DNA of 8,456 nt. It comes from Elusimicrobiota bacterium (GTDB lineage Bacteria > CG03 > SLGR01 > PWQF01). Of this stretch, positions 1-8,456 are shown piece by piece. The translations under genes and the position numbers were made by a program. The first letter of the stretch is position 1; each line of letters begins with the position of its first letter. The DNA is taken from assembly GCA_003557485.1 (NCBI GenBank), contig PWOI01000052.1, positions 1 to 8,456 on the forward strand, read 5' to 3'. The notes below the pieces were generated by a model. It worked only from the letters and a program-made list of their open reading frames with translations. It made no database searches and was not told the origin of the DNA.

Positions 1-500
1 AAAGAAATCCCGGTAGTACCCAAGCCCCCGTCAAATATTTCATTCAGGGGAGTATAATCGTCTTCGGCATAACTGAGCCACAGCAGCCGGATTCCGGCTC
101 CGACCGAAATCCCGTCTCCAACTTCATATCCGCCGCGCATAATTGCTTCTCCCTCGCTGTACAGGTCGGTAGCCGTAAAACTCATTATTCCCATACCTAT
201 ACCGAAACGGTCCGTAATGCCGTAAACTCCGGCGGCGTTGCCGGACATAAGGTTAACCGAACTGTCAAGCCCTGTAAACCTGTTGCCGTAAACAGCGTAA
301 ACTTCATCGGAATATATCCCCGCCAGGCCCGCAGGGTTAAAATAAACCGCGCTTACATCGTTGCCCAGCGCAGTCATCACGCCGGCCATTCCTCCCGCGC
401 GGGGCATAGAGTCGCGGGTAAGGAACATAGCCTCCGCGGGCCCCGCTGCCGTAAGCAGCAGAACAGCCGTTATAATAATAAATACTTTTATCCTTCTCAT
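1..500 (-). CDS. PorV/PorQ (UPF0164)-like outer-membrane beta-barrel protein (3' partial)
   Basis: The frame starts at ATG (500-498), overlapping the TGA of the giant gene, and stays open to the left edge, giving 166 codons. Residues 1-24 are a signal peptide (MRRIK, then a hydrophobic run, cleavage after AEA). Next comes a family-typical N-terminus: PRAGGMAGVMTAL at 33-45, then NDVSAVYFNPAGLAG at 47-61. The NPAGL box and the preceding glycine/alanine-rich 'small-residue, A, small-residue, G-D' pattern mark PorV, PorQ and UPF0164 barrels, which resemble FadL. After it come short alternating segments rich in G, Y, F and V (for example GVYGITDRFGIGMGIMSF), consistent with transmembrane beta-hairpins. 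PorV in Bacteroidota type IX secretion binds the C-terminal signal of substrates and carries them to the attachment machinery. A similar role here is inferred from the adjacent protein's FlgD-like C-terminus and the ATGA coupling. No strong Shine-Dalgarno is visible; GGTGG lies a few bases upstream. Whether it is PorV itself or a paralogue cannot be told from the N-terminal third. Confidence 0.82.
   Translation of the reverse strand, partial: MRRIKVFIIITAVLLLTAAGPAEAMFLTRDSMPRAGGMAGVMTALGNDVSAVYFNPAGLAGIYSDEVYAVYGNRFTGLDSSVNLMSGNAAGVYGITDRFGIGMGIMSFTATDLYSEGEAIMRGGYEVGDGISVGAGIRLLWLSYAEDDYTPLNEIFDGGLGTTGIS
497..500 (-). promoter_or_regulatory. ATGA stop/start overlap coupling the giant gene to the PorV-like gene
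   Basis: On the minus strand, bases 500-497 read ATGA: the start codon of the barrel gene shares two bases with the TGA of the giant gene. This geometry normally indicates translational coupling by terminating ribosomes, and it fits the weak ribosome binding site. It implies that the barrel is made in step with a very long upstream protein. Confidence 0.7.
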
Positions 501-3500
501 CTTGCCACCGCAAAAACCCCGGTCTCTACATCACCGCCTGCTTCAAGCTGGTATATATATGGGCCGCTCTCAACATATTTATCATTCCGGTCCCGGCCGT
601 CCCAGACTATCACGCTTTCGCCGTGACCCGGACGGAGCTGCCTTATCTCCCTGCCGCGCATATCATATATTGTCGCGGTAACGTCCTTGTTATCCGGATT
701 ATCAAAATAGAGACGGAACCTGTTGACTGTCTCTTCCCTGCTGTCCGGGGAAAATATCCTCGGAGCGATCTTTGTTACGCCGAAAGACAGGGACGGGTAT
801 ATGTACTTAACGCCGTATCTGCCGAAATTTCTCACTCTTGCCCCCACGCCCGACGTGCCTTCGTCCTCGCCTACCTTTACCCACTCAACGCCGTTAAACC
901 AGTACAGGGCCGTATTCTTTTCATCCCGGTCCAGGGCAGAAGAGGAAGGCGCGTCATCCAGGCTTACATTCAGCAGAAAACCTATGCCCCTGCGGTCAAG
1001 GGATACATTTACCACACGGCCCTGCTCATCAACAGCGTCAACGGTAAATTCCATAATAAAGTCATCCGTAGATTTAATTTCTGTCACTACTCCCAGGTTT
1101 TTCGCGACTTCGTTTGTATCCTTGTAAAGAACGCCGGCTATTTCCTTCTCCATGCTAAGGCTGACTACTCTTCCGTCGCGCTGCCGCAGAAAAGAAACCT
1201 CTCCTAACACATCTAATATCATACCGAGAGCAGACTCCTGGTTATTTTTATCCAGGGTCTTGACAGTATAATACTTATAACTGCTGTCATAGCTCCCCGT
1301 CCAGGAGGTAGAACCTGCCGACGCCTGTCCCGCCTGAATCCATTCACCCCTTCGGGATGCCGCCTTATATATATTGTACCCCTGAACTTTTCCGTCAATT
1401 GAGGAACCGTCAGTATATCTTGTAACCTTGGCCCACCTGACAGTTATATTCCCTCCCGAAACAGAAGACTGCACGCCGTGCGGGTACCTGGGACGGGCCT
1501 GCACGTCAAGGGTTACTTCCCCGCCCGGCCCTTCCGTACCGTCGCTGCTAAGAGCCCTGACCTGATATGTATAAGAGGGAACCGAAGCATCAATATCCGT
1601 ATCTACAAATGATCTTTTATCGGCACCCAAAGTCTTATAAAGAACTCCGTTGCGGTAAATCCTGTAGCCGCTTATTACCGGCGAAAGCGACCTGTCTTTA
1701 TACTCGGCAAGAGAATACGGGCCCTCTCCCCCGGAATTAACGGCAGTAACCCTGTAACGGTAAAGAGGGGAAGGATCCGGAGCATCCACACTGCTCCAGC
1801 TGATTACAAACCTTTCCGGCGTATCAACCATCCCGTGAACCGAAGGAGTGGAAGGAAGGCTGCCGTAAACCTCGCTGTCATCATACTGTTTCCCCGAAGC
1901 CGTTCCTACCGCAATAGTACCCCTGTAAATCTTGTAACTTAAAACATGAATATCATTATGATTGTAATTAATCCTGAGAAAAGAATTATCAACCTCCGTA
2001 ACCGTCAAATTATGTACCGGCTCCGGCAGGGCCCGGATTGAAGCCTGAGCGGACTCGTAAATATCACCCGACACCGGATCGGTTGAAGCAAAAATGCTGA
2101 AACTGTATTCTTTACCCGGCTCAATGGGAGGCTCCGTATCAAAAAGGGACTGCCTTATTTCCTCCGCCTCCCACCAGTCTTTTGTTTCCCATAATCCGTC
2201 CCAGGAAGATGAAGTCTTACCGTTTCCGTCCAGATACCTGTTATCTCCGGTTCGTATAACGTAATACCACTCTCCTTCATCTTCCCATCCTATGTTAATG
2301 CCGACATGGAGATAATAATCAAACTGATTGCTCCACCTGCTTGACAACACAGGTTCGAAGGTTTCGGTTTCAATGGATTCCTCCGTTGAATAAGCGGTTT
2401 CCAGTTCGTCTTCATTCCTCGCGTTTACAGATACAAAATACAGGGTTCCCGGCTGTATGTTATCCTGGTCGGCAACCTGCACCGGGTCTCCCCATTCAGC
2501 GCTTGTGGTAAAGAACGCCGTTGCTGCAAGGGTCCCGCCTGATTGGACATACATATAATTTATGCCGTCCGTAGTTACTTTTATTGAGTACTCCGTGTTT
2601 GAAGGATTTCCGTTTTCATCCATTATCACCTGAAACGCCCTGACCCGTGCCCTGAGAAGTGTCGGCTTTCCGGGTTTCCGGACCGCAGTATATCTGGTTA
2701 TACTGCCGGAAAAAGCCGTTTCTATTTCGTCGTGATTGCGTCCCATTATACGGAAATCATACGGCTCGTTTAAGTCCAGTCCCGCAGAAACCCATTCATC
2801 TGATTGTATCCAACCGCTGTTATCCGGCAGAGTTTCGTTTTCAAAATTAAGGCCAGAATCGCCTTCGGCAACATTGTTAATATTTTCCGCTATAACAGTT
2901 ATGCTTGCCAGGTTTATAACAAAATTTATCTCGTCCGGAACACGCATAAGAGTCCATTCTTTATCTATATTGGAATGATCACTCTCAACTCCCTCCCCAA
3001 CACCTACAACATACCTGCTGTAACGGGTATTGTGGTCGAGTTCGGTTTCCTCCCACTTCATTGTTTCCGTAGAGACCTCTGTCTGTAAAACATGTGTATC
3101 AGCACAGTATATACGGAACATTTCCGCTTCCCCGGCAGGATCCTCCCACGCCCAGGTTATAGAATCTACCGTTGTAGACCCGGACAGTACACGGAAGTTT
3201 TCAGGATTGGGAATCGCAGGAGTTTCTCCCATATCAAAATCAGATAAGGCTGTCTCACTATCGTCAAAATTCCTGGCTTTGACTTTATAATAATAGCTTG
3301 TAGATGAAACAAGACCGCTGTTAACCCGGACAGTCTGTGTACTCCAGTACTCTTCCGCAGCCAGCAGTCCGTCTTCGCCTACCCACCATTGTTCAAAGCC
3401 CCCGTCAGCCCTTGTAGATTTTGTAACGGCATACTCGGTAACAGCGGAATTATCCCTGGCATCTATTTCTACTGTGCAGTGATATAGATGCTGCTCCGAC

Positions 3501-6500
3501 CAGGCTCCGGTCACGTCCGGAGTTCCGGGAGTTTCAGCCAGGGACCACCTTTGCTGACCGGCGGAAAACTCTTCACTTTCAAGCCCGTCCGAAGAATAAG
3601 CCTTTACCTGGTAAAAAGCTGACGTGTTGGGAAGAAGACTGCTGTCGGTATATTCGGTATTAAGCCTTCCTTCAACGGAATCAATTAATTCCCCGTCCCG
3701 GTATATTCTGTACCCGCTAACAACAGGCTCCACCCTTGCAGGGAGTTCATTGCTTAAGGGCCCTATCCTATCGGTAAAGGCCCTTACGCTGTACCATTTG
3801 GTTGCCGAGGGTGTCAGGTTACATTCAACCGCGTCCCACTCAAGTTCAACTGACGTATGACTTAAAACTTCTGCCGTAAGCCCCTGCGCCTGATCGGGTT
3901 TTCCCCCGTCCAGGTCATCATAAAAATCAGTTGCAGTTGTTGTCCCTATTTCCAACGGCAAACCGTCCGGCTCTGTGGCGCGGTAAACAATGTAATATGA
4001 AATATTTTCCTCGGCTCCTCCGGGGACATTCCATCTAATACGAAGAAAATCATTATCAATTTCAGCTATAGTCGTTATATGAGGAGCGGGGGGAATAGTT
4101 GTTATGGATTTGGGCTCGGAAGGACCCGTTTCAAAACTTTCAGCATTCCTGGCATATACTGTATAAGTATATTCGGTTGCCGGGAGCACATTTACTTCAT
4201 GCAGATTGGATCCCTTATCTTCCCATTCATCGCGGGTTTTCCAGACCTGGGTTTCTCCGTAATTTCCATTTCCCTGGAGCCACCCTGTTTCCTCGCCGTC
4301 TAAAAATGAGACAAATATTGCATATTTCGTACGATCCGGGTTGCCGTCATCTGTTGATATATGAACACTTACCCAATAATCCTCACCTCCGTAATGCCCG
4401 GTATCAAGATCGGCGATTTCAGGTACTGCCGCCCTTGTTGTCTGGGTCCCCAGATGCACCCAGTCGGTTATCACTCCCGCCTTGTTTCTTGCCCGTACTT
4501 CGTAAGAATATTCTTTGTCAGGTTCCAATTCATCATCATCGTCACTCGTTATTTCCCTCCACCCGGAACTCGTTAAAGCTGTTATGTTCCTTAAATAAAA
4601 TTCAGTGTCCGGAGGATTACCGTTGAGGCCCCAGTTAACAGTCATAGAAGTAGAAGTAACATTTGTAAAAGTTTCGGCAGGCGAAAGTTTCCCCGGCGCT
4701 CTTGCAAGGGTATGCGTAGAAGACTCATACCCGAATACACTGTCTGTGTATGGCAGATTTCTTGACTTAAGCCTTACCCTATATAGGGTGTTTGGCAAAA
4801 GTCCCTTCATTTGTCCGCCGGGATCTCCCGTCATCCACGTAGTAGTACTTGCCCAATATATTGACTCGGTACCGAGGAACCCCGTGTCATTCCTGACATA
4901 ACGCTTCACCTGGGAATCGCCAGTACTCACTGCTATAAGGTATTGCGTTTCATGATTTTCATTTACGGGGATTATGCTAAAATCAATGGTAGTCTCAGCG
5001 GGAGAACTGAGAACAGGGGCTGTAGCTATCAGCGTAGAAAAAACTTTATCCGCCCCCCAATTTTCGTAAACTTCACTGCCGCTCCGGCTGCGCATTCTTA
5101 TGCGGTATTCCTGCCCGCTCAGAAGTCCGAGCGCTTTAGATTCCGCATCCTCCTGCCAGGAGAGAGGCGTACGGTAACTGGGAACAGAACCCAGATGCCC
5201 TCCTTCCTGAAGGTAGCGCGCCGCGTTCCAGTCCGCAGAAGTCAGGGCTACAGCGTATTCTGTCAAGTGAGGATTGGCTGCCTCGTTTATTTCAAATACA
5301 ACGTCCCTTGTATTGACGCTTATCACATCCGGCTGGCCTGCCGGCACAGCCCTTGTAAAGCCTGAAACCGGATCAGAGAGAACGCCGTCAACACCCTGGG
5401 TTGTTACCGCCTTAACCTGCCAGTAGTAAGAAGTATTTACCGCAAGCCCGGTATCGTTGGTAATAAAGGTATCGCTTGAAACATCCTCCACAAAATCCCC
5501 GTCCCGGTAAATCCAGTATTCCGAAATTACCGGCATAACATAAATGTCTACTTCGCCATTGGCAACCGGACTGCGGGCGCTTTCGGCTCCCGCGGCTATT
5601 GAAGTCATACGGAAAAATTGAGTCTGGCTCGGCAGAGGAATGGCTTCATCCCATTCAAGGGTGACATAAGTACTGTCTGTTTCATCAACCTCAACCGGAT
5701 TCATCTGTTCTACGTTTCCTTCAACATAATGGTCATAATAGCGATTTTCAAACCATTCGATTTCAGCAAGGAACTCAAACTCATCTGAATCAATATCAGG
5801 GGATGTGGCATAATATATTTTATACGAATCTACATCTGCAACCTCATCCCAGGATATCCTGAGAATATTGTTATCCATCATTGCAACATTAATATTTCCC
5901 GGATATCCCATTGGAGTAAGACCGATTCCTTCAGGTGAATAATCTGTCAGCACACCGTTAACATTGACAGCGCGCACGTCAAACCTGTATTCGGTGCCGG
6001 CCGATACATCTGTATATAAATTATGCTCATCCGAATGCCATTCATCCCAAGTCTTCCATACCGGATTTTCACCTGTACCGCCATCGCCTTGAAGCCACCT
6101 TGACGGTAGAGGCCGGGTCCTACGTATAGCGTAAAGGGTATGAGGAGGATTGTCATCTTCTGCCAGAGTAACTTCTATGAAGTAATATGTTTCTCCTTTT
6201 TCGTCATCTTCTGATCCTCCTTCTACAGCAGGAGCCAGCGGCCGGGACGCCAGCGTACCGACAGCCATATCCAAAGGAGGACTTGTATCCACTCCCACCC
6301 GGGATTCAATGCGAAAATAATGGGTGGTATTCGGCACAAGGTCGGAAACTGTCCAGGTATAACCTACCTGCCAGTCAAACGTATCAAGAACAGAGATAAA
6401 ATTCGGCATAGTTGAAACTATTGCCCTGTACTCGGCATCCGGGTGATTGATTGTCTGCCAGTTGGCTGTAATTGACCCGGTACTTACCGATGTAAAGGAA

Positions 6501-8239
6501 TCCCATACAGGACGCCCGGAAGTGTATCTCTGCGGCTTAGTTGACCAACCCGATACATTATCAGCATAATCTTTTGTTCTCAATTGGAAGTGATATTCAG
6601 TAAAGCCTTTAAGTTCGCTAACAGTATAACTGTTGGGTGAACCGGCAGGAGTAGTTGTGGGTATGAGAATACTGGTGTAGGAAGAGAACTCACTATCGGT
6701 TGAATACCATATTTCATATTCCGCATCCACAAGGTCGCCCCATCCGCCGTGATTATTATTTGCATAAGGAGCATTCCAGCTTAACTGAATACTCTCTCCC
6801 TCATAAGCTTCCACCGCGGAAAGAGTTACCGTTGTCGGGGGCCACATATTAACAGTAAACTGCCTGGACCCGGTAGGATCAGACCAGTTGCCGGCCTTGT
6901 CCCTGGCCCTCACTCTCCAGTAAAAATGATACGGAGGATATCCTTCCACATCAATGGATATCTCAAGTTCATCGGTAAATTCAGCTATCAGTATAGTGCT
7001 GAATGATGAAGAAGATGCAATCTGAACCTCATACCCTGCTACTCCGGAGTGTTCGTCTGTTGAACTCTCCCACCTAAAATCAATTACGGTTGTTTCTGTT
7101 TCAAGCTCATTATTTTCAGGTATTATTAGAGAAGAAGGCACGGTCGGCGGTATATTATCCAGGTAAGCAGTCCATACCTCCGACCATTCGGAAATATTGC
7201 CCGCTTTATCCTCAGTTGCCACACGCCAGTAAACTGTGGCCCCGGGTTCCAGGGCAAGGAACCCGGTGAAGGTCTGGGTGGAAATAACAGGGGTTGAGGA
7301 AAATTCAACTTCCAAAAACTCTTCGTCAATAGCCACTTCTATTATGTAGTTGGAAAACCCGCTGTGTAAGACATCACCGGCTATATCCGTCCATTCAAAA
7401 GTCACCGTATCGGTATAAATCATATATTCGTCCGCCGGTGACGCAAGTAATGGCGGATCAGGTAAAATATTCTCTAAATAACAATGCGACACCTCTGACC
7501 AATCCGAGATATTGCCGGCATTGTCCTGAGCATTAACCCTCCAGTAAAAGGTAGTACCAGGTGTAAAACCAAAGAAACCGCTGAATTCTTTTTCAGTGGT
7601 TCCCGCTCCTATGATATCACTGTAATTAATAACTTCAGTAAAGGTTTCGTCAGTTGACACCTGTATTTCGTAATGGGAGAGTCCGCTGTAATCATCAACT
7701 ACCGCGCCCCATTCAAAATTAACTTCGTCATCAACTACCATATAACCGGTTGCCGGGGAGGTAAGCTGGGGAATAGCAGGAGTTATTGTTTCAATATAAA
7801 CTGTCCAACTGTCGGACCAGCCCGAAAAGTTCCTTGCATTATCTTCGGCTCCTACCTGCCAGTAAAAGGTAGTTCCGGGTGCAAAATCAAGGAACCCGTC
7901 AAAAGTCACCTGGTTATCTACAGGCGAGGCGGAATAGTTAATAAAATCAAACTCCGCATCTGTTGAAACCTGTATCTTGTAATTAGAGAATCCGCTGTAT
8001 TCATCTGTTACCTTACTCCAATCAAAAGTTATATCATTATTATATACCATATAGTTGGTTTCGGGTAAAGATTGTTCCGGGACATCAGGCGGGTTGTCAT
8101 CAATCACAAGAGTAACGCTTATATCAAACGAATCTGTCGTGGGATCGGCAGATACAGGAAACGCTGATAATATAGCAAAAATAAAAACACCTATAACGGT
8201 GATAGATACATTTCTTATGTTTTTAAGTTTGCTATACAT
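497..8239 (-). CDS. Giant secreted FnIII-repeat protein with FlgD-like C-terminal sorting domain (2580 aa)
   Basis: This is a single uninterrupted frame from ATG (8239-8237) to TGA (499-497). The start is chosen because it gives a complete signal peptide (basic MYSKLKNIRN, hydrophobic core to about residue 27, VSA before D32). No clear Shine-Dalgarno sequence lies upstream, so translation may depend on coupling from the preceding gene, whose stop is 8 bases away. Layout by residue: FnIII-like repeats 1-3 at 50-363; divergent repeat 4 at 364-466; units 5-6 at 467-665; cassette A 666-962; three units 963-1268; cassette B 1269-1567; four units 1568-1960; cassette C 1961-2248; a last FnIII 2249-2344; a beta-rich domain 2345-2485; and an FlgD-like Ig domain about 2490-2580. 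FnIII marks recur throughout: the strand B tryptophan, YxIYR in strand C, and YxxxVxAxN in strand F. The protein is visibly acidic and has only four cysteines. I see no catalytic motif, SLH, dockerin, LPXTG or carbohydrate-binding module. The likely role is a surface-exposed or released adhesin or fibre. The exact function is not recognisable, and the name states architecture only. Confidence 0.9.
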   Translation of the reverse strand: MYSKLKNIRNVSITVIGVFIFAILSAFPVSADPTTDSFDISVTLVIDDNPPDVPEQSLPETNYMVYNNDITFDWSKVTDEYSGFSNYKIQVSTDAEFDFINYSASPVDNQVTFDGFLDFAPGTTFYWQVGAEDNARNFSGWSDSWTVYIETITPAIPQLTSPATGYMVVDDEVNFEWGAVVDDYSGLSHYEIQVSTDETFTEVINYSDIIGAGTTEKEFSGFFGFTPGTTFYWRVNAQDNAGNISDWSEVSHCYLENILPDPPLLASPADEYMIYTDTVTFEWTDIAGDVLHSGFSNYIIEVAIDEEFLEVEFSSTPVISTQTFTGFLALEPGATVYWRVATEDKAGNISEWSEVWTAYLDNIPPTVPSSLIIPENNELETETTVIDFRWESSTDEHSGVAGYEVQIASSSSFSTILIAEFTDELEISIDVEGYPPYHFYWRVRARDKAGNWSDPTGSRQFTVNMWPPTTVTLSAVEAYEGESIQLSWNAPYANNNHGGWGDLVDAEYEIWYSTDSEFSSYTSILIPTTTPAGSPNSYTVSELKGFTEYHFQLRTKDYADNVSGWSTKPQRYTSGRPVWDSFTSVSTGSITANWQTINHPDAEYRAIVSTMPNFISVLDTFDWQVGYTWTVSDLVPNTTHYFRIESRVGVDTSPPLDMAVGTLASRPLAPAVEGGSEDDEKGETYYFIEVTLAEDDNPPHTLYAIRRTRPLPSRWLQGDGGTGENPVWKTWDEWHSDEHNLYTDVSAGTEYRFDVRAVNVNGVLTDYSPEGIGLTPMGYPGNINVAMMDNNILRISWDEVADVDSYKIYYATSPDIDSDEFEFLAEIEWFENRYYDHYVEGNVEQMNPVEVDETDSTYVTLEWDEAIPLPSQTQFFRMTSIAAGAESARSPVANGEVDIYVMPVISEYWIYRDGDFVEDVSSDTFITNDTGLAVNTSYYWQVKAVTTQGVDGVLSDPVSGFTRAVPAGQPDVISVNTRDVVFEINEAANPHLTEYAVALTSADWNAARYLQEGGHLGSVPSYRTPLSWQEDAESKALGLLSGQEYRIRMRSRSGSEVYENWGADKVFSTLIATAPVLSSPAETTIDFSIIPVNENHETQYLIAVSTGDSQVKRYVRNDTGFLGTESIYWASTTTWMTGDPGGQMKGLLPNTLYRVRLKSRNLPYTDSVFGYESSTHTLARAPGKLSPAETFTNVTSTSMTVNWGLNGNPPDTEFYLRNITALTSSGWREITSDDDDELEPDKEYSYEVRARNKAGVITDWVHLGTQTTRAAVPEIADLDTGHYGGEDYWVSVHISTDDGNPDRTKYAIFVSFLDGEETGWLQGNGNYGETQVWKTRDEWEDKGSNLHEVNVLPATEYTYTVYARNAESFETGPSEPKSITTIPPAPHITTIAEIDNDFLRIRWNVPGGAEENISYYIVYRATEPDGLPLEIGTTTATDFYDDLDGGKPDQAQGLTAEVLSHTSVELEWDAVECNLTPSATKWYSVRAFTDRIGPLSNELPARVEPVVSGYRIYRDGELIDSVEGRLNTEYTDSSLLPNTSAFYQVKAYSSDGLESEEFSAGQQRWSLAETPGTPDVTGAWSEQHLYHCTVEIDARDNSAVTEYAVTKSTRADGGFEQWWVGEDGLLAAEEYWSTQTVRVNSGLVSSTSYYYKVKARNFDDSETALSDFDMGETPAIPNPENFRVLSGSTTVDSITWAWEDPAGEAEMFRIYCADTHVLQTEVSTETMKWEETELDHNTRYSRYVVGVGEGVESDHSNIDKEWTLMRVPDEINFVINLASITVIAENINNVAEGDSGLNFENETLPDNSGWIQSDEWVSAGLDLNEPYDFRIMGRNHDEIETAFSGSITRYTAVRKPGKPTLLRARVRAFQVIMDENGNPSNTEYSIKVTTDGINYMYVQSGGTLAATAFFTTSAEWGDPVQVADQDNIQPGTLYFVSVNARNEDELETAYSTEESIETETFEPVLSSRWSNQFDYYLHVGINIGWEDEGEWYYVIRTGDNRYLDGNGKTSSSWDGLWETKDWWEAEEIRQSLFDTEPPIEPGKEYSFSIFASTDPVSGDIYESAQASIRALPEPVHNLTVTEVDNSFLRINYNHNDIHVLSYKIYRGTIAVGTASGKQYDDSEVYGSLPSTPSVHGMVDTPERFVISWSSVDAPDPSPLYRYRVTAVNSGGEGPYSLAEYKDRSLSPVISGYRIYRNGVLYKTLGADKRSFVDTDIDASVPSYTYQVRALSSDGTEGPGGEVTLDVQARPRYPHGVQSSVSGGNITVRWAKVTRYTDGSSIDGKVQGYNIYKAASRRGEWIQAGQASAGSTSWTGSYDSSYKYYTVKTLDKNNQESALGMILDVLGEVSFLRQRDGRVVSLSMEKEIAGVLYKDTNEVAKNLGVVTEIKSTDDFIMEFTVDAVDEQGRVVNVSLDRRGIGFLLNVSLDDAPSSSALDRDEKNTALYWFNGVEWVKVGEDEGTSGVGARVRNFGRYGVKYIYPSLSFGVTKIAPRIFSPDSREETVNRFRLYFDNPDNKDVTATIYDMRGREIRQLRPGHGESVIVWDGRDRNDKYVESGPYIYQLEAGGDVETGVFAVAR
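500..772 (-). other. FlgD-like Ig / type IX-like C-terminal sorting domain (residues 2490-2580)
   Basis: The motifs appear in order. RIFSPDS (2494-2500) stands where the family has (N/R)xFSPNxDG. A strand LYFDNPD is followed by ATIYDMRGREIRQL (2522-2535). VIVWDGRDRND (2543-2553) matches the W-D-G-x-D hallmark. ESGPYIYQLEAGG (2557-2569) matches (P/S)SGxYxYxIxxxG, and the end is a basic residue (VAR). This is the FlgD Ig-like fold used at the C-terminus of exported proteins in Bacteroidota-like and candidate-phylum bacteria, where it commonly acts as the secretion/attachment signal. The next gene being PorV-like supports that reading. Confidence 0.82.
785..1207 (-). other. Beta-rich pre-C-terminal domain of the giant protein (residues 2345-2485)
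   Basis: This region has no FnIII marks. It alternates short hydrophobic strands (VSLSMEKEIAGVLY, FIMEFTVDAVD, GFLLNVSL) and ends with ALYWFNGVEWVKVGEDEG (2444-2461), then VRNFGRYGVKYI (2469-2480). The pattern 'xLYyfNGxeWvkvg ... v.hFg.Yg' recurs in many large surface proteins just before an FlgD-like or other C-terminal anchor. I know no formal function for it. Confidence 0.6.
1208..1495 (-). repeat. Last FnIII-like unit (residues 2249-2344)
   Basis: This is an ordinary FnIII arrangement: ITVRWAKV for strand B, VQGYNIYKAAS for strand C, and YKYYTVKTLDKNNQES for strands F-G. It is the only unit between cassette C and the C-terminal domains and shows no aromatic insert. Confidence 0.75.
1496..2359 (-). 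repeat. Three-part cassette, copy C (residues 1961-2248)
   Basis: This is the most diverged copy and slightly shorter (288 residues). The insert FnIII reads RYLDGNG (2001-2007), then LWETKDWW (2016-2023) and EYSFSIFAS. Strands A-E follow as FLRINYN...SYKIYRG. Then comes strand B FVISWSSV (2144-2151), followed by the very typical F-G segment LYRYRVTAVNSGGEGPYS (2159-2176). Strand C PVISGYRIYRNGVLY (2187-2201) comes after it, closing with YTYQVRALSSDG. The order of pieces is exactly as in A and B. Confidence 0.8.
2360..3538 (-). repeat. Four FnIII-like units between cassettes B and C (residues 1568-1960)
   Basis: The units fall at about 1568-1673, 1674-1764, 1765-1850 and 1851-1960. The first and last carry the aromatic insert (WWVGEDGLLA at 1618-1627; MYVQSGGTLA at 1896-1905, ending EW at 1915-1916) and F strands ending in ARNxxxxET. 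The second (PENFRVLSGSTT...ITWAWEDPAG...FRIY) is a plain FnIII. Its length of about 91 residues matches the extra length of this array compared with the one after cassette A. The third is degenerate and short, with WIQSDEW (1810-1816) and YDFRIMGRN recognisable but no clear strand C. Confidence 0.72.
3539..4435 (-). repeat. Three-part cassette, copy B (residues 1269-1567)
   Basis: This is the same order as copy A and almost the same length (299 against 297 residues). The insert FnIII has WLQGNG...GETQVWKTRDEW (1320-1339), then TEYTYTVYARN. Strands A-E follow as FLRIRW...SYYIVYRATE with FYDDL. Then comes strand B VELEWDAVE (1464-1472), the early F-G segment KWYSVRAFTD (1481-1490), and strand C PVVSGYRIYRDGELI (1505-1519) ending in FYQVKAYSSDG. 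Copies A and B are clearly homologous along their whole length. The two WLQG inserts are the most similar stretch. Confidence 0.82.
4436..5353 (-). repeat. Three FnIII-like units between cassettes A and B (residues 963-1268)
   Basis: The units fall at about 963-1072, 1073-1179 and 1180-1268. The first two carry the aromatic insert: RYLQEGGHLG (1008-1017) and RYVRNDTGFLG (1113-1123), each followed by an S/T-rich stretch ending in tryptophan (W1028, W1135). Their F strands read YRIRMRSRSG and YRVRLKSRN. The third is closer to canonical FnIII (SMTVNWGLNGNPPDTEFYL, then YSYEVRARNKAG). The array opens with VPAGQPDV, which parallels TPGTPDV at the start of the array after cassette B. Confidence 0.75.
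5354..6244 (-). repeat. Three-part cassette, copy A (residues 666-962)
   Basis: This is the first of three copies of a compound module. Part one (666-777) is an FnIII variant with a long insert, WLQGDG...GENPVWKTWDEW (715-734), before TEYRFDVRAVN. Part two (780-842) is FnIII strands A to E, NILRISW...SYKIYYAT. Part three begins with strand B TYVTLEWDEA (857-866), passes at once to an F-G-like FFRMTSIAAGAES (875-887), and only then shows strand C PVISEYWIYRDG (903-914) and its own YYWQVKAV (938-945). Copies B and C have the same order of parts. Confidence 0.8.
6245..6841 (-). repeat. FnIII-like units 5 and 6 (residues 467-665)
   Basis: Unit 5 (467-576) has IQLSWNAP, AEYEIWYSTD and YHFQLRTKDYADNVSGWS, i.e. 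strands B, C and F-G, with an asparagine/glycine-rich insert after strand B. Unit 6 (577-665) has SITANWQTI, AEYRAIVST and THYFRIESRVGVDTSPP. Both follow the usual FnIII order. They are single, dissimilar units rather than members of the repeat family in front of them. Confidence 0.75.
6842..7150 (-). repeat. FnIII-like repeat 4, divergent member of the first array (residues 364-466)
   Basis: It keeps the family signature, FRWESSTDEHSGVAGYEVQI for strands B-C and YWRVRARDKAGNWSDP for strands F-G. It lacks the YM motif and the PGTTFYW turn of repeats 1-3, having GYPPYHFYWRV instead. It closes with NMWPP, leading into the next unit. It is the boundary between the uniform first array and the more varied units that follow. 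Confidence 0.8.
7151..8092 (-). repeat. Tandem FnIII-like repeats 1-3 (residues 50-363)
   Basis: Three consecutive units have anchor spacings of 103 and 106 residues (the YM dipeptide falls at 63-64, 166-167 and 272-273). Each runs SPA..YM, then (F/W)-strand FEW or FDW, SGxSxYxIxVSTDxxF, F.GF..F.PGTTFYWxV, and ends in DNAGNxSxWSE before a D/E-N-I-x-P linker. The similarity extends to DNA: 7541-7580 and 7859-7898 match at 34 of 40 positions at an offset of 318 bases (106 codons), with the first 15 bases identical. This indicates duplication recent enough to have left nucleotide similarity. Units like these usually act as rigid spacers. Confidence 0.9.
8147..8239 (-). other. Signal peptide of the giant protein (residues 1-31)
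   Basis: The N-region carries K4, K6 and R9. The hydrophobic core runs from V11 to about F27. The PVSA/D boundary (residues 28-32) fits a signal peptidase I A-x-A-type site (V29-S30-A31). There is no lipobox cysteine, so it is not a lipoprotein. This directs Sec export to the periplasm. Confidence 0.85.
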
Positions 8240-8247
8240 AAAATCTA

Positions 8248-8456
8248 TTATTGACTATCACGTACTGCTCGTAAATAGAATAAGCTTTCTTTCCCAAATG
8301 AACGATTCCTCTTTTCATTTTCCCTAAAATCCCTACTCCATGCGCTTGCGCCAGCACTTTGTGTTGCTGACCAATATCTTCCTGCTGATGCTACAGGCCC
8401 ATCGTCATTATAGCTTATATAATAAACACCTTTTTCACATAAGTTTTCCAATTCAC
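8248..8456 (-). CDS. 3' end of a DUF1566 / Lcl-C-terminal-like domain protein (5' partial)
   Basis: The reading frame is open from the right edge and ends at TAA (8250-8248), directly followed by an in-frame TAG. It gives 68 residues of C-terminus. The segment GRYWSATQ, then an alanine/tryptophan stretch (ASAWSRDF), then a polar turn and FYLRAVRDSQ at the end follows the closing pattern of DUF1566/Lcl C-terminal domains and the related Fibrobacter major paralogous domain: YWSaT.....aW...F......k....yvRaVR. These domains are found mostly in secreted or surface proteins and are thought to have a C-type-lectin-like character; their ligands are generally unknown. A TTG within the frame (8451) could be a start, but the domain needs about 100 or more residues upstream, so the gene almost certainly begins outside the window. 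The next gene starts 8 bases after the stop, so the two are probably cotranscribed. The domain call rests on recalled motifs, not on a profile search. Confidence 0.72.
   Translation of the reverse strand, partial: ELENLCEKGVYYISYNDDGPVASAGRYWSATQSAGASAWSRDFRENEKRNRSFGKESLFYLRAVRDSQ

Follow-up and report, generated by a model that had tools for sequence, protein, structure and literature searches.

Probable interlocked pairs of fibronectin type III domains, interleaved in sequence, in an Elusimicrobiota protein and in myxococcal relatives

Three cassettes of ~190 aa in a large protein of an Elusimicrobiota bacterium are each, very probably, a pair of fibronectin type III (FnIII) domains interlocked within one chain. 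The protein (2580 aa) is encoded on the minus strand of an 8,456-nucleotide stretch of DNA (assembly GCA_003557485.1, contig PWOI01000052.1, positions 1 to 8,456), referred to here as the window. The strands of each cassette occur in the block order A1-B1-C1-E1, A2-B2, F1-G1, C2-E2-F2-G2. Domain 1 would thereby consist of A1-B1-C1-E1 plus F1-G1, and domain 2 of A2-B2 plus C2-E2-F2-G2. The A2-B2 hairpin would thread the link from E1 to F1, and the F1-G1 hairpin would lie between B2 and C2. Since the order A-B-C-E-F-G is kept within each domain, both folds would be ordinary.

Block order and predicted fold of the cassettes

The block order can be read from the motifs of the cassettes. In each of them, a Trp-bearing A2-B2 pair (TYVTLEWD, SVELEWD and RFVISW in cassettes 1, 2 and 3, respectively) is placed after an A-B-C-E half domain. 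An F-G pair comes next (FFRMTS, WYSVRA and YRYRVTA), and only afterwards does strand C appear (ISEYWIYRDG, VSGYRIYRDG and ISGYRIYRNG). Cassettes 2 and 3 align to cassette 1 over their full length at ~32% identity.

Cassette 3 was modelled with AlphaFold2 from an alignment of five rows, comprising the three cassettes and two modules of a myxococcal protein, L060, that is described below. The model had a mean predicted local distance difference test score (pLDDT) of 90.6 and a predicted template modelling score of 0.73, and its 14 strands lay where they were expected. Work with VIA-align showed that both domains superpose on solved FnIII domains, the seven-stranded A-B-C-C'-E-F-G sandwich. For the first domain, the single FnIII domain 7jgu (FN3tt, 90 aa) matched over 84 residues at 1.6 Å within model residues 2..119, and 1k85, likewise a single domain, over 85 of 88 residues at 1.8 Å within 1..117. 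For the second, the FnIII domain of pectate lyase PelI (3b8y) matched over 80 residues at 1.4 Å within 62..177 and 5jip over 86 residues at 1.8 Å within 59..178; with 4wtw included, these matches covered 80–88 residues at 1.4–2.2 Å in a model span of ~57..180. In order for a whole domain to fit within 2..119, ~34 residues must be skipped, which is the size of A2-B2 and its links; within 62..177, ~36 residues must be skipped, the size of F1-G1 and its links. Two overlapping spans that each hold a whole FnIII domain therefore mean that the strands are interleaved. Unlike those of an ordinary tandem array, the two domains are not contiguous in sequence (2..119 and 59..178 overlap).

Tandem FnIII pairs from the PDB can be aligned to the whole model (e.g., 1qg3 over 146 residues), as might be expected if the motifs had been misread and each cassette were simply two ordinary domains in succession. 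However, those pair alignments cover the model only at a root-mean-square deviation (rmsd) of 5.8–20 Å, and Foldseek needed ~230 columns, ~50 of them gap columns, to match the 182-aa query to a 195-aa target at a template modelling (TM) score of 0.40. Single domains, by comparison, fit at 1.4–1.8 Å, and in overlapping spans only, leaving the sequential reading scarcely credible. Among the 50 of 999 PDB chains listed by VIA-align, none superposes both domains of cassette 3 at low rmsd, and a sequence search of solved structures found nothing related to the cassettes or to L060 except weak FnIII matches.

The original prediction, made from the sequence alone, had described this strand order in three copies, had placed the F-G pair of the first FnIII unit inside the next domain, and had proposed structure prediction as a check. 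All of the strings it quoted were found, in the order it gave and in one minus-strand frame. The model of cassette 3, with strands assigned by DSSP, yielded neither two sequential FnIII domains nor an early F-G segment devoid of pairing but the opposite, namely whole domains in overlapping spans, and the co-variation described below agrees.

In a search of viral structures, the best match of the cassette 3 model was BFVD entry A7KUU0 (406 aa), which aligned over the whole query at a TM score of 0.60 and 5.6 Å, a score clearly higher than that of the PDB tandem pairs (~0.4). A7KUU0 is possibly another interleaved pair. Its accession block is presumably that of a large Bacillus phage.

Another line of evidence comes from profile searches. 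Pfam fn3, whose gathering score is 25 bits, spans ~110 residues of cassettes 1 and 2 for its 77 profile positions (query 73–183 and 71–176; 26.8 and 26.9 bits), a coverage that fits A2-B2, a gap across F1-G1, and then C2 through G2. On cassette 3, it scores 20.7 bits, below the cut-off, over query 6–109, which fits A1 through E1, a gap across A2-B2, and then F1-G1. In these alignments, as in the model and the superpositions, the chain order A-B-C-E-F-G is kept inside each domain and one block is inserted. To obtain a synthetic AB-FG-CE profile, ordinary FnIII domains taken from other proteins were cut up and their pieces recombined, with no window sequence included. The profile matches the three cassettes at the expected places (24.6, 18.4 and 12.7 bits), but by opening a gap at FG it aligns to some ordinary domains as well, and is thus weak and unspecific by itself. 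Natural relatives were therefore sought.

Myxococcal relatives and co-variation

The search for relatives employed a DNA pattern encoding W, then Y.[VI].A within 7–17 residues, then Y.[VI]YRDG, across 84,980 genomes. It returned eight matches, of which one was genuine: L060, from a Myxococcales metagenome-assembled genome. The pattern was limited to W plus a G-starting codon, such that this yield is a lower bound. In two of the other loci, L059 and L061, the Y.[IV]YRDG string of the pattern's RDG tail is preceded by non-FnIII sequence; the remaining matches were out of frame or unrelated.

The L060 protein is 1483 aa long, lipoprotein-like, and contains two modules of ~270 aa each that are 57% identical. 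Each module follows the order A1B1C1E1, A2B2, F1G1, C2E2, A3B3, F2G2, C3E3F3G3, which would be the arrangement of the window cassettes with one more domain, making three. The genome of L060 has 11 matches of this kind. Of 188 sampled genomes in its phylum-level group, 11 contain such matches, ~75 altogether; these are concentrated in one family-level group (11/21 genomes), with two genomes in another. The original prediction had guessed that the arrangement was wider than the one gene, a guess that these matches bear out. Three genomes of the L060 group (G404, G414 and G531) have at least 12 interleaved-FnIII matches each, with up to 24 in G404; this abundance is a lineage-specific expansion. 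In L126, L127 and L156, three AB-FG-CE units of ~90 aa, often near-identical, follow one another at protein residues ~460–900. With its ends included, such a chain would apparently amount to about five interlocked FnIII domains.

Profiles built from these relatives were compared with controls consisting of 57 open reading frames (ORFs) from FnIII-rich loci. The profile of myxococcal AB-FG-CE units gives the cassettes 24.2, 20.8 and 18.4 bits, versus -0.8 for the best full-span control. With the profile of whole modules (A1 through E2, in interleaved order), the matches in the window protein are exactly the three cassettes (46.6, 33.8 and 20.9 bits), and the best long-span match in the controls is 8.4 bits. 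Since the AB-FG-CE part receives almost as high a score from the synthetic profile, both common descent and convergence fit the likeness between the window and the myxococcal proteins.

Other searches yielded no further relatives. A peptide-pattern search found no close relative in viral contigs or genome contigs, and in the phylum-level group to which the window belongs (16 genomes) nothing matched except the window itself. In FnIII loci from this genome and its relatives, a regular-expression search for B-F-C turned up no additional case, and an ordered DNA pattern for B-F-C in viral contigs gave eight matches, none of which supports the interleaved order. In a survey of 386 genomes with two interleaved-order profiles (A3 and A8; top 10–14 candidates per genome scored), a whole-span match occurred in the window only; the remaining matches covered the first block alone and represent ordinary FnIII. 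The L060 module was unmatched in plasmids and phages, and a Moorella phage match (H1, 25% identity) proved to be an ordinary tandem FnIII protein.

An AlphaFold2 model of the L060 module was weaker (mean pLDDT of 62.2), with domain 1 confident. On this model, 7jgu superposed over 82 residues at 1.5 Å within 1..115, 9bfq over 83 residues at 1.6 Å within 57..202, and 8oty over 89 residues at 2.0 Å within 56..204. A span of 146–149 residues for 83–89 aligned means that both F1-G1 and A3-B3 are skipped and that domain 2 is built from three pieces.

Co-variation provided evidence that is independent of AlphaFold. When mean-field direct coupling was applied to 74 non-redundant myxococcal modules, 13 of the top 30 between-block pairs linked blocks that interleaving assigns to the same domain, across the intervening block (5.0 expected), and none of 231 cyclic label shifts reached that number. 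Examples include C2-F2 across A3-B3, B2-C2 across F1-G1, and, spanning A2-B2, the last part of E1 coupled to the first part of F1.

These couplings also bear on a nested arrangement, in which A2-B2-F-G-C2-E2 would form an FnIII domain with permuted strands, and an outer domain, made of A1-B1-C1-E1 and the last F-G, would carry it in its E-F loop. Nesting would suit the 90-aa AB-FG-CE unit of the tandem arrays, which has one of each strand, and a small number of co-varying pairs couple F1 to C2. Nevertheless, strand pairs predicted only under interleaving number 12 in the top 50 and 20 in the top 100 (2.8 and 5.7 expected), whereas those predicted only under nesting number three in both (2.8 and 5.7 expected), a difference with a Mann-Whitney p of 8e-6. 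Moreover, the whole FnIII domains of cassette 3 occupy model residues 2..119 and 62..177 and not 1..180 minus its middle. Every superposition on a solved FnIII domain runs in chain order, something that would be impossible along the full length of a permuted domain. A nested arrangement is thus very unlikely.

Several points nonetheless weigh against interleaving as the explanation. The arrangement is known from a predicted and not a solved structure, and cassette 3 is the sole cassette modelled, with cassettes 1 and 2 placed by alignment. Strand pairing was deduced from which spans accommodate a complete domain and not from hydrogen bonding, and VIA-align reports the first and last aligned residues, not those skipped. 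The L060 model is confident for domain 1 only, with A2-B2 at a pLDDT of ~67–73, C2-E2 at ~78–80, and A3-B3 and domain 3 mostly at <50. With 74 sequences, individual co-varying pairs are weak, and the cyclic shifts are not independent tests.

It is also conceivable that the cassettes are a degenerate array, reduced by random recombination to non-functional strand fragments incapable of forming two domains. The low identity among the cassettes would be in keeping with such decay, as would the failure of Pfam to detect domain 1 of cassettes 1 and 2 even after de-interleaving. Yet the frame is open throughout, the order is kept in three divergent copies and in the matches from another phylum-level group, and cassette 3 has a high-confidence fold, making random damage extremely improbable. 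The original prediction had likewise argued against damage from conservation despite divergence. The conserved order stands, but the copies are less telling than supposed: because all three cassettes belong to one shared larger repeat unit, they are neither three independent inventions nor three independent witnesses.

Proposed architecture and the host protein

In the interlocked pairs proposed here, hairpins are exchanged through connections, so that the chain would cross between neighbouring domains three times (E1 to A2, B2 to F1, and G1 to C2) rather than once through a free linker. Repetition of AB-FG-CE in myxobacteria would generate interlocked chains numbering three to about five domains, the inner ones built from three pieces. 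Three crossings would fix the orientation of neighbours and make the domains unfold together. Within secreted or surface-anchored proteins, such a chain would most likely act as a spacer that is stiff and free of linkers and that would resist pulling and proteolysis without disulfides. The myxococcal units have four cysteines in 19,693 residues and, being nearly cysteine-free, do not have their interlock reinforced by disulfides.

Lipobox-like N-termini occur in 10 of the 56 myxococcal ORFs that have upstream sequence. The last ~270 aa of L060, C-terminal to its interleaved modules, consist of tandem 'TETVRKLDSDGNEQWSF' repeats that are beta-propeller-like, while the C-terminal end of L066 has GLUG-like 'GGLIGYNS' repeats instead. 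The interleaved part seems to be a carrier for differing C-terminal domains, and the lipobox-like starts together with the propeller-like end of L060 point to stiff spacers that would separate a distal domain from a membrane anchor.

Interlocking might also be real but take place between chains, as open-ended domain swapping, in which case it would be a device for joining molecules and not a stiff joint. The same strand exchange is possible in principle between chains, and Ig-fold proteins such as CD2 are known to swap domains (PMC8470474). Against this, the within-chain model of cassette 3 is confident, tandem units always supply the missing hairpin in cis, and the first and last units have matching complete ends in both the window and L060; exchange between molecules is accordingly highly improbable. 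As for the origin of interlocking within one chain, the F1-G1/A2-B2 junction of an ordinary tandem may have been duplicated and the outer copies lost, thereby exchanging the two blocks.

The window protein would contain three such joints, each after the same FnIII-like domain (Table 1). This preceding domain has the form 'WLQGxG..VWKTxDEW' and is similar ahead of every cassette; by this likeness, a larger unit of FnIII-like domain plus cassette has probably been triplicated. Pfam matches to the protein include fn3 (5.9e-38, 129.4 bits), Ig_Rha78A_N (4.1e-27) and a weak FlgD_ig. The N-terminus is signal-peptide-like and the C-terminal region FlgD-Ig-like, and the protein is probably secreted. 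Toward its N-terminal end lie four Ig_Rha78A_N/SusE-like domains in ordinary order (aa ~50–360; window 7100–8100).

The next gene, on the same minus strand (window 3–500), is the start of an outer-membrane-like protein, for which UPF0164 and FadL/TodX are weak Pfam matches. Its motif style, 'ARAGGM..VSAVYFNPAGLAG', resembles that of PorV/PorQ-type proteins. Combined with the large protein's C-terminus, which is weakly FlgD-Ig/Por_Secre_tail-like, this motif hints at a possible type IX-like export route.

Table 1. Coordinates of the host gene, the cassettes and their blocks, and the preceding domains (window positions; aa, residues of the host protein; m, residues of the cassette 3 model)
Feature	Position	Residues	Strand	Evidence
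Host gene, FnIII/Ig-like multi-domain protein	497..8239		minus	One open frame, 2580 aa; Pfam
FnIII-like domain ahead of cassette 1	5912..6286	aa 652-776	minus	Leave-one-out profile, 28.8 bits
Cassette 1, interleaved	5339..5911	aa 777-967	minus	Alignment, fn3 and order-specific profiles
Cassette 1 A1-B1-C1-E1	5717..5902	aa 780-841	minus	Alignment to modelled cassette 3
Cassette 1 A2-B2	5639..5716	aa 842-867	minus	Alignment to modelled cassette 3; fn3 match
Cassette 1 F1-G1, between A2-B2 and C2	5537..5632	aa 870-901	minus	Alignment to modelled cassette 3
Cassette 1 C2-E2-F2-G2	5351..5536	aa 902-963	minus	Alignment to modelled cassette 3; fn3 match
FnIII-like domain ahead of cassette 2	4100..4474	aa 1256-1380	minus	Leave-one-out profile, 35.5 bits
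Cassette 2, interleaved	3524..4099	aa 1381-1572	minus	Alignment, fn3 and order-specific profiles
Cassette 2 A1-B1-C1-E1	3902..4090	aa 1384-1446	minus	Alignment to modelled cassette 3
Cassette 2 A2-B2	3824..3901	aa 1447-1472	minus	Alignment to modelled cassette 3; fn3 match
Cassette 2 F1-G1	3728..3814	aa 1476-1504	minus	Alignment to modelled cassette 3
Cassette 2 C2-E2-F2-G2	3539..3727	aa 1505-1567	minus	Alignment to modelled cassette 3; fn3 match
FnIII-like domain ahead of cassette 3	2036..2410	aa 1944-2068	minus	Leave-one-out profile, 12.8 bits
Cassette 3, interleaved, modelled	1490..2035	aa 2069-2250	minus	AlphaFold2; VIA-align
Cassette 3 A1-B1-C1-C'1-E1	1868..2026	m 4-56 (strands 8-15, 19-25, 33-38, 41-46, 50-53)	minus	DSSP on model
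Cassette 3 A2-B2	1787..1858	m 60-83 (strands 66-72, 75-80)	minus	DSSP on model
Cassette 3 F1-G1	1688..1774	m 88-116 (strands 92-100, 113-115)	minus	DSSP on model
Cassette 3 C2-C'2-E2-F2-G2	1496..1681	m 119-180 (strands 121-128, 131-137, 142-145, 154-163, 168-177)	minus	DSSP on model

Comparison with known systems and meaning

FnIII is among the commonest and best-studied of domain folds, and annotation treats its domains as successive beads. The cassettes share with ordinary FnIII tandem arrays (PF00041) the fold of each domain (1.4–1.8 Å over 80–86 residues) and the conserved B-strand Trp and F-strand Tyr. Ordinary arrays, however, complete one domain before beginning the next, whereas the domains of a cassette are each split by part of the neighbour and would be connected by three crossings at a junction where an ordinary array has one linker. 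In a nested domain insertion, one domain is likewise interrupted by foreign sequence, but there one domain lies whole inside the other, while the cassette domains interrupt each other.

Interdigitated domains are also found among Tudor proteins, for which we know of no longer chains. The double Tudor domains of JMJD2A and RBBP1/ARID4 are, like the cassettes, two small beta domains of one chain with interdigitated segments, but they are SH3-like barrels, not sandwiches, and their repeats have the normal sequence order (PMC8470474, PMC8038949). CD19 (PDB 6AL5), the only double Ig fold in the structural database as of 2021, has two Ig-type sandwiches that interdigitate in one chain; its sequence domains, however, keep the A–G order and swap halves on folding (PMC8470474). 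The cassettes, in contrast, have blocks interleaved in sequence, normal domain topology and the FnIII fold, and their arrangement extends to longer chains in myxobacteria. In sequence order they depart from the CD19-type fold, which is also characterized by two long sheets fused across both domains. In MXRA8 (PDB 6JO8), one Ig domain similarly has its A-B hairpin in the neighbouring domain, but through a reciprocal swap of two domains with normal sequence order (PMC8470474). What is novel relative to CD19, MXRA8 and the Tudors is that the exchange is written in the sequence itself, keeps ordinary topology, and propagates to chains. A literature search, with subscription journals mostly outside its coverage, found no report of interleaved, interlaced or entangled FnIII domains.

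It is likely, then, that bacteria build open-ended interlocked FnIII chains in which the repeating evolutionary unit (AB-FG-CE) is not the folding unit, the inner domains are made from three pieces, and a first unit lacking F-G and a last F-G cap are needed. Such chains would be a distinct fibre architecture and a rigid cell-surface stalk. Bead boundaries are wrong in principle here: profile methods detect half domains, and the repeat seen in the sequence differs from the unit that folds. The arrangement would also constitute a natural, disulfide-poor means of locking adjacent beta-sandwiches and a testable case in which the transposition of one block converts a flexible tandem to an interlocked chain. 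It may offer a scaffold for rigid multi-domain binders and a subject for force spectroscopy on how extra chain crossings relate to mechanical strength, and the near-identical tandem units of L126, L127 and L156 are a good target for structure determination.

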